Shown piece after piece: positions 27,241 through 30,887 of a stretch of DNA of 64,000 nt. Numbering within the stretch: position 1 is the first letter of the stretch; each line of letters opens with the position of its first letter. The notes beneath the pieces are model-generated. The model did no database searches. It was not told the DNA's origin and was given only the letters and a program-made list of their open reading frames with translations. The stretch comes from Mayamaea pseudoterrestris (Eukaryota; Bacillariophyta; Bacillariophyceae; Sellaphorales; Sellaphoraceae), in NCBI GenBank assembly GCA_027923505.1, contig BROI01000025.1, positions 372,001 through 436,000 on the forward strand, read 5' to 3'. The translations under genes were made by a program, and so were the position numbers.

Positions 27241-28221
27241 TTAGCGGCGACCCTTGATCTTGCTGCTGCCGCTTCCAGATCCAGAGCCACTGCCTCCCTT
27301 GGCCTTTGATCCTTTCACTCCCTTGCTGCTTCCACTGCCGGATCCAGAAGCACTGCCACCTTTTCCACCCTTGCTGCCCTTGACACCCTTGCTACTGCCA
27401 GATCCAGAACCAGATCCGCCGCTGCCCTTGATTTTGCTGCCCTTGGACTTGCTACCCTTGGTTTTGCTACCCTTGGTTTTGCTGCCCTTGACGCCCTTGC
27501 TACTTCCACTACCAGATCCAGAGGAGCTGCCAGAGCCAGAGTTTTGGACATGGCCCGAGTGATGGGAGGCGCTGCCACTTCCAGAGTTTTGGTTGTGGTT
27601 GGAGTGACGAGGGACGCTGCCGCTTCCAGAGTTTTGGTTGTGGCTGGAGTGATGAGGAACGCTGCCGCTTCCAGAGTTCTGAACGTGGCCCGAGTGGTGA
27701 GAGACGCTGCCCGAGTCAACAATGACAATGGGTCCAGCAGATCCGCCAGAGCCAGATCCATGGGTGCTGCCGCTACCGGATCCACTTCCAGAACCATGGC
27801 CACTTCCACTGGAAGATCCTGATCCCTTGACGCTTTTGGATCCCTTGCTAGACTTGCTCGCCTTTGGTGCCGTCAGCTTGGATGCTTTCGCGCCTCCCTT
27901 GACGGACTTGGACTTGGAGTGCATTTTCTTGGTATATGAGCCAGAACCCGAGCCAGAGCCCGAGTAGAGCTCTCTGCCACGAACTCCATATAGTTGTGCC
28001 TGCGGGTTTTATACATTCGAATCAGATCGAGCGCGCGTTAGCCAATGCATGAGTACAAGGGCACTCTGAGCGAGTAAACATTTCCATTGAACATTGAACC
28101 AAGTCGCCAATTTACTCATCACCCGATACAATGCAACAAGTCACACACATACAAAACGTACCTCCTGGGCGACAACACACGCCACGACGGCAAGTAGAAT
28201 AAGGTTGGATAGCTTGGACAT
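27241..28221 (-). CDS. Silaffin-like secreted Lys/Ser/Gly/His-rich protein, two exons
   Basis: Exon 1 (28221-28162) encodes exactly a 20-residue signal peptide, MSKLSNLILLAVVACVVAQE. A 162-nt intron (GTACG donor, CCGCAG acceptor, phase 0) leads to exon 2 (27999-27241). The predicted precursor has 272 residues. After the signal comes a short propeptide ending GVRGREL, which contains an RXL sequence like the processing site of diatom silica-forming proteins. Next are KSK/KGSK clusters, a Ser-Gly region, four His-rich 15-residue repeats (NSGSGSVPHHSSHNQ type), and more Ser-Gly and KGSKxKGSK blocks, ending KIKGRR. Lys, Ser and Gly make up most of the protein. Silaffins are highly phosphorylated, polyamine-modified Lys/Ser proteins that template silica; membership here is inferred from architecture, because such proteins share little sequence. 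An extracellular-matrix glycine-rich protein is the alternative. Confidence 0.8.
27541..27720 (-). repeat. 45-bp coding tandem repeat (His-rich 15-residue units)
   Basis: Four adjacent 45-nt units, the last partial, lie inside the silaffin-like gene and encode NSGSGS followed by two or three His, Ser, His and Gln. The first and last units end GHVQ, the middle two end HNQ, which suggests duplication followed by partial homogenisation. Confidence 0.85.
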
Positions 28222-28646
28222 GATTATTGAAGAGTGAAGTGGTTTGGTGGACGAGGTGAGTCGAATTATGATGATGATCGCGCAAGTTGCTTCCATCCGT
28301 TTTTCAAACGAGCTATGCACATGCGCCGCATGCCTTCTACTTAACAGTATCAACGAGCCCGCAAGGTTTGAACGTCGACCAGCTCATCGGCATTTTATCT
28401 AGTTAGATCAATCGTGTCGGATCAAATGGATGGGTCGGCTTGGATACTTAGATGTTTTTATACATGCTTGAATGGGCTCAGACTGTATTTTGTCCGTTCA
28501 AGATCCGATGAGCCAAAGCGCAAATCAAATCACGGAGCGACGTATCATCGTTCCAATTCGTCCATGGAAGAACCTGTGCATCTTGACATCCAACATCCAC
28601 CATCCATGCATCCGATCCTTTATTGTTGCCACCAATAGTAATCAGA
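28222..28646. promoter_or_regulatory. Divergent promoter region
   Basis: About 425 bases between the silaffin-like gene and the Nudix gene, which point away from each other. No element or gene could be singled out. Confidence 0.35.
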
Positions 28647-29150
28647 ATGTCACGCGATCCTCCAGCTCCCTTTCATCCTACAGCAACCCGTCGCGTCAGG
28701 GGATCCGTCCGCGTAGGCGTTGGTGTCATTGTTTGCCAAGGCCACAAGATTTATGCTGGCCTTCGAAAAGGATCCCATGGAACTGGCAAACTCGCTCTGC
28801 CGGGAGGACACTTGGAACTTTACGAAAGCTGGGAGGATTGTGCGATTCGGGAAGTAATGGAGGAAATGAATGTACACATAAGTGGCGTTCGGTTCGTCCA
28901 CGTGTGCAACAATCCAATGCCTGACGAAGAGAAACACAACGTGACAATATTCATGATGGCGAGAATAAACGATGATGCAATAGCGCCTGTGAATACTGAA
29001 CCTGAAAAGTGCGAAGGATGGAATCTTTACAGTTGGAATGAGCTTAGGGAAATGATGGACGCGGACAAGGTGTTTTCTCCATTGGAGTGTCTCGTTAGGG
29101 AGGCGCCAGCTGCTCTCCTGGAATTTCTGCACAAAGTGAACAGCAGGTGA
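28647..29150 (+). CDS. Nudix hydrolase, NUDT15/MTH2-like
   Basis: The 167-residue protein carries the Nudix box: LPGGHLELYESWEDCA followed by IREVMEEMNV, with REVxEE in place. The position normally Gly in EExG is Asn here. The block GVGVIVCQGHKIYAGLRKGSHGTGKLALPGG before the box, in shorter form, and FVHVCNNPMPDEEKHNVTIF after it resemble human NUDT15 in order and wording, including the C-terminal NxEPEKCEGW segment. NUDT15-type enzymes hydrolyse oxidised or unusual nucleoside triphosphates to monophosphates. The ATG at 28647 is the first of the frame; there is no targeting sequence, so a cytosolic or nuclear location is likely. Confidence 0.9.
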   Translation: MSRDPPAPFHPTATRRVRGSVRVGVGVIVCQGHKIYAGLRKGSHGTGKLALPGGHLELYESWEDCAIREVMEEMNVHISGVRFVHVCNNPMPDEEKHNVTIFMMARINDDAIAPVNTEPEKCEGWNLYSWNELREMMDADKVFSPLECLVREAPAALLEFLHKVNSR

Positions 29151-29546
29151 TGAGTCGTCTCTGTTTCCTACGAATGCAACGGCTTTCATTTTTATCGACA
29201 GTAGGCTTGCGTATAGAGGCGCGTCGACAATGCCATGGCCTCAAAGGCTGGATTTCCTAGTACGCTTTCTTTGCACAATGAATGCAGGATTTGATCAATA
29301 AGATAATGCGGATTATAGTTTGCACGTGTATGATCGTCTTCAAAGTTAAGATACTGCAGCACTGTTTCATTTAAAGACACTGGCTGCTGCTGCTAGAATT
29401 TATCTCGACATCGCTGCGGTACTCATTCACGAACGACTTCTTGTCGCCTTCGAAACTTCAACTTGGCATGGATCGAGCCTACGTCGCACATCACTTCTTG
29501 GTAGTTTATTTCTTCCTTACAATAGACTTGACTTACAACTACGACA
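29151..29546. promoter_or_regulatory. Upstream region of the uroporphyrinogen decarboxylase gene
   Basis: About 400 bases between two rightward genes. A minus-strand frame of about 60 codons (29192-29380) has natural-looking composition but starts only at GTG and lacks a family match; I leave it uncalled. Otherwise presumed 3' untranslated and promoter sequence. Confidence 0.35.
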
Positions 29547-30887
29547 ATGAAGGTCGCTTTCAGTTTATCTGCAGTATTGCTTACTCTCGGCTCGTCCACC
29601 GCGTTCTCACCCTCAGTGCGAACGACGAGGACAACTTCATCACTATCGGCATCGGTGGAGCAAGCGACAGCGTCCGCATCAACTTCCAAGGACTCGCACG
29701 ACGCCCCTCTACTCATTCGGGCTGCCCGCGGCGAACAGGTGGAACGAACTCCCGTCTGGATGATGCGACAGGCTGGTCGACACATTGCCGAGTATCGAGA
29801 ATTATGCAAAACCTACCCCACCTTTCGCGAACGCTCCGAAATTCCACACGTTGCCGTCGAAGTGTCGCTGCAGCCTTGGCGCAACTACCAAACAGATGGT
29901 TGCATTTTGTTCAGTGACATTTTGACGCCACTTCCAGGCATGGGATGTGAATTTGTCATTGACGAAAAGAAGGGACCCGTCATGGCGTCGACGATTGACT
30001 CCTGGGACAAGCTTGACACGATTCACGCATTGGATCCGACCAAGTCAACGCCATTCGTCGCTGAAACACTTCAACTTTTGCGGCAAGAGGTTGGACCAGA
30101 AACGGCCGTTCTTGGATTCGTTGGTTGTCCGTATACACTGGCCACGTATTTGGTGGAAGGCAAGTCGTCCAAGGAATACTTGGAAATCAAAAAGATGGCC
30201 TTGAATGAGCCAGAACTGCTGCATGCCATTCTTCAAAAGCTTGCTGACAATATTGGAGACTATGCGCTCTATCAGATTGAAAGTGGCGCTCAACTGATTC
30301 AAATGTAAGTGACGAGAAAACAGTTGCGTCCGGCGTACTGTTTTGCACCTGCAGGCAAGAACGGGTATCAGAAAAAAACACTTGCAAACGAGAGAATAAT
30401 CTGACTTGCTTATCTTGGTCGTTTCAGTTTCGACTCATGGGCCGGTCACTTGAGTCCACGCGACTACGACGCCTTTGCCGCACCTTACCAAAAGCAAGTC
30501 CTTGACAAGATCAAGGCTGCTCACCCTGAAATTCCAACGGTTGTTTACATTAAGCATTCCGGAGCCTTGATTGAGCGCATGGCGGCAACGGGAGTTGATG
30601 TCGTGTCGCTTGACTGGACGGTGGACATGGCGGATGGACGCAACCGCGTCGAAGCAGGTCGCAAGGCTGCCTGCTTGAGTGGACGTGGCGGTGTGCAAGG
30701 CAACTTGGACCCAGCTGTGCTTTTGGGCAACCATGATATGATTAAGGAACGGACGGAAGAGATCCTTAAGAAGGCCGGTAACACTGGTCACGTAATGAAC
30801 CTTGGTCATGGTATCGAGGCGTGCACACCAGAGGAGAATGCAAAATGCTTCATTGAGACTGTGCGAAACTATAGACACGACGCATGA
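29547..30887 (+). CDS. UROD: Uroporphyrinogen III decarboxylase, plastid-targeted, two exons
   Basis: It decarboxylates the four acetate side chains of uroporphyrinogen III to give coproporphyrinogen III on the way to haem and chlorophyll. Exon 1 (29547-30304) joins exon 2 (30428-30887) across a 123-nt intron (GTAAGT, TTTCAG). The join splits an Ile codon and restores the family sequence QIFDSWAG; total length is 405 residues. The substrate-binding PVWMMRQAGRH motif and GCPYTLATY block are intact. The N-terminus MKVAFSLSAVLLTLGSSTAF is a signal peptide with an A-F cleavage site followed by a Ser/Thr/Arg-rich transit peptide, the bipartite presequence of heterokont plastid proteins. This gene is the clearest marker of a secondary red-type plastid in the window. 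Confidence 0.97.

Follow-up and report, generated by a model that had tools for sequence, protein, structure and literature searches.

The minus strand of the analysed window, a stretch of 64 kb (C25:372001-436000) in a 30.6-Mb, 41-contig genome that is very probably of a diatom, carries a putative two-exon gene for a silaffin-like protein. The spliced coding sequence is in frame and encodes 272 amino acids, from an ATG at 28221 to a TAA stop at 27243-27241. The following features were distinguished (evidence in brackets):

28162..28221, minus strand: exon 1, residues 1-20, signal-peptide-like (hydropathy, rule-based)
28000..28161, minus strand: intron, 162 nt, phase 0, GTACGT...CCGCAG (frame-0 stops, AGGT donor context)
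27241..27999, minus strand: exon 2, encoding residues 21-272, with the TAA stop (spliced reading)
27967..27975, minus strand: RXL-type site REL, residues 29-31 (motif count)
27820..27966, minus strand: N-terminal Lys block, residues 32-80, with 12 Lys and a single His (composition)
27505..27819, minus strand: central Lys-free Ser/Gly/His block, residues 81-185, with no Lys and 13 His (composition)
27544..27717, minus strand: His-rich unit array with a 45-bp period, residues 115-172 (tandem repeat, unit alignment)
27244..27504, minus strand: C-terminal Lys block, residues 186-272, with 20 Lys and no His (composition, repeats)

The intron is bordered by the donor GAG/GTACGT and the acceptor CCGCAG/GCA, and the splice points 28161/28000 are the same as those proposed in a preliminary description of this DNA. 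When the intron is read through in frame 0, two stops are encountered, so the signal-like exon can reach exon 2 by splicing only. Twenty frame-keeping GT-AG pairings without an internal stop exist in the ranges tested, and the 28161/28000 pairing is the one among them that unites an AG/GTACGT donor with a CAG acceptor. An alternative donor (GTATGT at 28152) used with the same acceptor is possible and would add three residues. The sequence AGGTRNGT is found in the 64-kb window four times on the strand of the gene and once on the opposite strand. Exon 1 is thus predicted to be joined to exon 2.

The URO-D gene in the same window (29532-30887) is apparently interrupted by a 123-nt intron (GTAAGT donor, TTTCAG acceptor; one frame-keeping GT-AG pairing in the short interval tested), so that short GT-AG introns are not unusual here. 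The start of the URO-D gene looks signal- and transit-like by eye, and further URO-D matches are located on C11 and C6. A NUDIX gene on the plus strand (first in-frame Met at 28647) is arranged head to head with the silaffin-like gene. Between the two start codons lie 425 bases (window 28222-28646), where the genes may share a promoter region.

Residues 1-18 resemble a signal peptide. Residues 7-17 form a hydrophobic core (11-residue mean hydropathy of 3.53), and V16 and A18 fit the (-3,-1) rule for a cleavage after A18; this call was made by hydropathy and the (-3,-1) rule alone and presupposes the predicted splice. The protein would accordingly be secreted. Plastid-targeted proteins are described as having Phe, Tyr, Trp or Leu at position +1 after signal cleavage (PMC12136025), and plastid targeting was rejected, as Q19 is at +1 after the rule-based cleavage site. 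Residues 19-31 form a 13-residue segment after the likely signal cleavage, with REL (29-31) as its last residues. This is the only RXL of the protein and corresponds to the processing site (GREL) noticed earlier. When residues 21-272 were shuffled 5,000 times, at least one RXL appeared in 281 cases, i.e., a single site is only mildly unlikely by chance; its cleavage may be expected by analogy with other diatom proteins.

In the whole protein, KXXK is present 16 times (shuffle mean 3.87) and K[SG][SG]K nine times (shuffle mean 1.26), and neither number was reached in any of 10,000 shuffles. The KGSK clusters reported previously were confirmed, with seven copies of KGSK counted. The C-terminal block contains a period-5 KGSKx run, in which K[SG][SG]K at 191, 196, 201 and 206 are spaced one residue apart, and three copies of SSKGVKGSK with SGSGSGS spacers. 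Pentalysine-type windows (five non-adjacent Lys in 12-14 residues) cover residues 45-58, 49-61, 66-78 and 188-199. The best 100-residue window has 35% Ser and 19% Lys, the best 150-residue window 33% and 13%, and the whole protein has only one Asp and two Glu in 272 residues, with a net charge of +35 before modification. For comparison, 264 kb of the same contig (the window and C25:1-200000) contain 611 stop-to-stop frames with a length of 100 amino acids and above. Five of them pass the Ser/Lys composition rule given below, but only in the frame of the silaffin-like gene does K[SG][SG]K occur more than once (nine versus at most one elsewhere).

It is the order of the blocks that stands out: a Lys block is followed by a Lys-free His block and then by a second Lys block. 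The central block (105 residues) holds 13 of the 14 His of the protein, and if every residue of 32-272 other than Lys and His is disregarded, these 13 His are consecutive. Such a run unbroken by Lys was found in 0 of 200,000 shuffles, in a test conceived after the sequence had been inspected. An HHSxH spacing recurs in the block, and a 45-bp tandem repeat (27536-27711) comprises 3.9 copies with 82% matches. Four His-rich units of 15 residues had been described here; this holds for three of them, whereas the first unit is diverged and has 13 residues. The suggestion that the His-rich units are distinctive was borne out in a sharper form, as Lys and His are kept in separate blocks. Pairwise comparison of the three full units gave 1/2, 3/4 and 3/5 synonymous/other codon changes, too few for an argument about selection, which was dropped. 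A match of the His region on C8 (E 0.84, 31% identity) is an Arg/Ser/His-rich frame without Lys clusters and was attributed to chance. The charge calculated for residues 81-185 with a His pKa of 6.5 is +12.7 at pH 5, +2.2 at pH 7.2 and +0.4 at pH 8; phosphate was left out, and Ser phosphorylation would shift the balance. The putative pH switch is a calculation rather than an observation.

Silaffin-like proteins are usually recognised through their composition and motifs and not through sequence similarity. One published screen asked for an ER signal and for a stretch of 100 residues or more containing 18% Ser and 10% Lys (PMC3820600), another for repeated KXXK (X being S or G, 1-6 residues apart), pentalysine clusters (five non-consecutive Lys in 12-14 residues, present in eight of the ten new proteins) and RXL (PMC5501833). 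The protein studied here has the composition of the first screen, with a putative signal peptide that fits by rule, and the repeated KXXK, pentalysine cluster and RXL of the second. By these criteria, rather than by sequence comparison, it resembles the Thalassiosira pseudonana proteins of both screens in its signal-like start, Ser/Lys content, KXXK with S/G, pentalysine clusters and RXL, and differs from them in the additional Lys-free His-rich block. RXL processing and Lys modification are described in PMC4557024. Silaffin-1 of Cylindrotheca fusiformis (R5 repeat, PMC3806462) has a common SGS/KGSK vocabulary and an RXL site past the signal region; however, our protein lacks repeated cleavage sites between modules and possesses the His block. 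In silicanin-1 (PMC5525289), the signal peptide is also followed by a short segment ending with RXL (30 residues versus 13 here), but the NQ-rich domain is absent from our protein, and no second long hydrophobic stretch was seen in it by eye.

Cingulins are known for Lys-enriched regions and frustule targeting (PMC9650480). The Lys-enriched regions of CinW2/CinY2, e.g., KSGKGSSSKGSK, are similar to those found here, whereas the Trp- and/or Tyr-rich domains alternating with KXXK regions in cingulins have no counterpart (0% Trp and 1.2% Tyr in residues 21-272). Silacidins are highly acidic phosphopeptides, unlike this chain with its few acidic residues (1 Asp, 2 Glu; net charge +35). Glassin of glass sponges contains more than 30% His and Asp (PMC11733937, PMC10282587), versus 5.6% His and 0.4% Asp in residues 21-272. 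In sorghum siliplant1, a silaffin-like Lys-rich domain and a glassin-like His/Asp-rich domain are reportedly joined (PMC8042044). The present protein shares the presence of a His-rich part with glassin and siliplant1, but its His block is Ser/Gly-rich with one Asp; it follows a siliplant1-like plan of Lys parts and a His part without the Asp, a resemblance in design only, the sequences being uncompared. In the open-access literature searched, no description was found of a diatom protein whose silaffin-type Lys blocks flank a His block free of Lys.

Database searches with exon 2 gave little. No Pfam family matched its translation at E <= 1. Six PDB sequences matched at E <= 1 (lowest E 6e-5), in each case within exon 2 residues 50-92; they were taken as Ser/Gly composition and linkers and set aside as homologues. 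A pattern search of bacterial and archaeal genomes gave 212 stretches; tblastn confirmed none of them and no relative was found, as expected for a eukaryotic gene.

The genome itself encodes silicon transporters. The silicon transporter (SIT) family PF03842 has ten matches on three contigs, with E values down to 2e-197, while only one of 14 control genomes gave a match, below cut-off; SITs are also found in Parmales (PMC10328945), so a diatom origin is very likely, though not proven. At C1:2970661-2974680, a single open frame of 1445 residues contains three consecutive silicon-transporter domains; most diatom SIT genes have one domain (PMC10328945). Spermine-synthase-type PF01564, examined as a sign of polyamine chemistry, has ten matches at eight places in the genome. 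It was rejected as a diagnostic sign, as it also matches 11 of the 14 prokaryote controls.

With full exon 2 as query, the same genome gave no match except exon 2 itself. The C-terminal 99 residues matched C20:159599-159697 (70% over 33 residues), with a weak E value of 0.024 for this best match. In a stepwise search using the C20 match and then two of its own matches as queries, KGSK-type repeats were gathered at nine places beyond the window (two each on C20 and C1, and one each on C10, C14, C22, C2 and C7). The KGSK/KGPK/KAPK-rich frames are located at C10:370337-370903, C20:157626-159934, C1:1267227-1268747 and C1:280864-281190, with further matches on C14, C22, C2 and C7. Those on C20, C10, C1 and C14 were read at letter level, and those on C22, C2 and C7 are matches only. 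Five of the six relatives read have a hydrophobic start (judged by eye, with a start Met of our choice) and at least one RXL, and in five of the six the Lys-rich modules come after the RXL sites; no RXL was seen in 860 of the 1198 residues of the C14 relative. The RXL numbers were reached in few or none of 5,000 shuffles for C20b (four RXL; 0 shuffles), C10 (six; 0), C20a (four; 4) and C1a (nine; 0), whereas the single RXL of C1b was reached in 2,641 and is no excess. The C10 frame appears polyprotein-like, a design not seen in the window protein, and of its six RXL sites RQL precedes KGSK twice and HGSK twice. Only one of five compared relatives, C1a, attains 18% Ser together with at least 10% Lys in a 100-residue window. 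The Collagen repeat model matches three of five relatives, two of them above the curated cut-off, and was taken to reflect their KGPKGxKG composition; their other Pfam matches are below cut-off. Three genome searches seeded with KGSK relatives did not return the window protein. Given this absence and the weak E value of 0.024, shared descent is not established: the genome holds a group of frames with RXL and KGSK, whose vocabulary also recurs in the window protein.

Taken together, we estimate a probability of about 0.65 that a diatom here encodes a secreted, silaffin-like protein of the silica matrix, built as a Lys-His-Lys triblock with a His block that would become charged in acid. The silaffin-like, RXL-processed and secreted nature put forward in the preliminary description gains support at the sequence level from the SITs, the published criteria and the other RXL/KGSK frames. 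The assignment as silaffin-like is by motif, and entry of the protein into silica is presumed from it; silaffins in the strict sense occur in silica, carry modified Lys and phosphorylated Ser and precipitate silica in vitro. Silaffin-like traits are expected in a diatom, and the gene is of a known kind; the part that stands out is the order of the blocks.

Exon 1 would provide an ER signal peptide spliced onto exon 2. As in silaffins and silicanin-1, a diatom RXL protease would then remove the segment ending with REL, and the mature chain would start with YSGSGSGS. The Lys blocks, with their KXXK/pentalysine-type clusters, would be modified, target the chain to the silica deposition vesicle (SDV) and act as binding sites for polyanions and polymerising silicic acid. 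SDVs are acidic, and Sin1 clusters upon acidification (PMC5525289). According to the calculation, the His block is near neutral at pH 7-8 and gains ~10 positive charges at pH 5; because of this pH-dependence, only within the acidic vesicle would the block contribute charge and bring about assembly or phase separation. In the end, the frustule would enclose a Lys-His-Lys triblock chain. Free histidine stays out of silica in vitro (PMC4311759), which counts mildly against a direct role of His. Separate Lys and His blocks are natural, testable parts, with Lys proposed for targeting and silica binding and with a His charge that would track vesicle pH.

Alternatively, an SGSGS/His-rich chain could serve as an extracellular adhesive or mucilage protein for attachment or trails, its Lys binding surfaces outside the silica. 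We regard this as unlikely, though it is the strongest of the alternatives. An adhesion screen in Amphora coffeaeformis also sought a signal peptide and a Lys-rich repetitive composition, and one of its candidates, AC4076, includes a stretch rich in Tyr and His (PMC4220933). However, that screen targeted Tyr-rich chains, whereas residues 21-272 have 1.2% Tyr and no Trp here; the localised candidate AC3362 turned out to be silica-associated (PMC4220933); and RXL together with KXXK clusters indicates silica proteins (PMC9650480, PMC5501833, PMC5525289).

A secreted metal-binding protein, with His units binding Cu, Zn or Ni at the cell surface and Lys/Ser as a wall anchor, would fit the 13 His in 105 residues and their repeated HHSxH spacing. 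It is improbable, as the block has no Cys and one Asp, the Lys clusters and RXL are left unaccounted for and exon 2 matches no Pfam family. The gene model could also be wrong, with exon 2 preceded by another 5' exon or translated from Met46, resulting in an unsecreted Lys-rich protein. Other frame-keeping GT-AG pairings and an in-frame Met upstream of exon 1 exist, and the junction is predicted from sequence; yet an AG/GTACGT donor, a CAG acceptor, a matching phase and a fitting signal peptide all coincide, making this rather improbable still. Finally, a chain may come to be of low complexity without having any function in silica, and the tandem arrays of 15, 45 and 12 bp and the lack of a Pfam match at E <= 1 would suit drift of a slippage-prone Ser/Gly/Lys coding sequence, but because every one of the six Ser codons is used, along with three Gly codons out of four, the chain is no simple DNA microsatellite; moreover, Lys and His lie in separate blocks and the RXL and KGSK design is common to several frames of the genome, so that this is the least probable explanation.

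A silaffin-like triblock chain bears on two questions, whether acidification gates silica-protein assembly and whether diatoms use His-rich silica chemistry. More speculatively, and in our opinion doubtfully, a diatom silica protein may here combine silaffin-type Lys clusters with a glassin-like His domain as a pH-gated polycation switch in the SDV. In that case, a His-containing cationic silica chemistry would have been reached separately in diatoms, glass sponges and grasses.

The other KGSK/KGPK/KAPK-rich frames are possible silica-matrix precursors in their own right, judging from their motifs. Two of them adjoin each other on C20. The frame on C14 (~120000-120626; 1198 residues) has long PVAPPSP and PTPVPTPRPT repeats, which are followed by dense clusters of Lys with KGSK and GGKGG.
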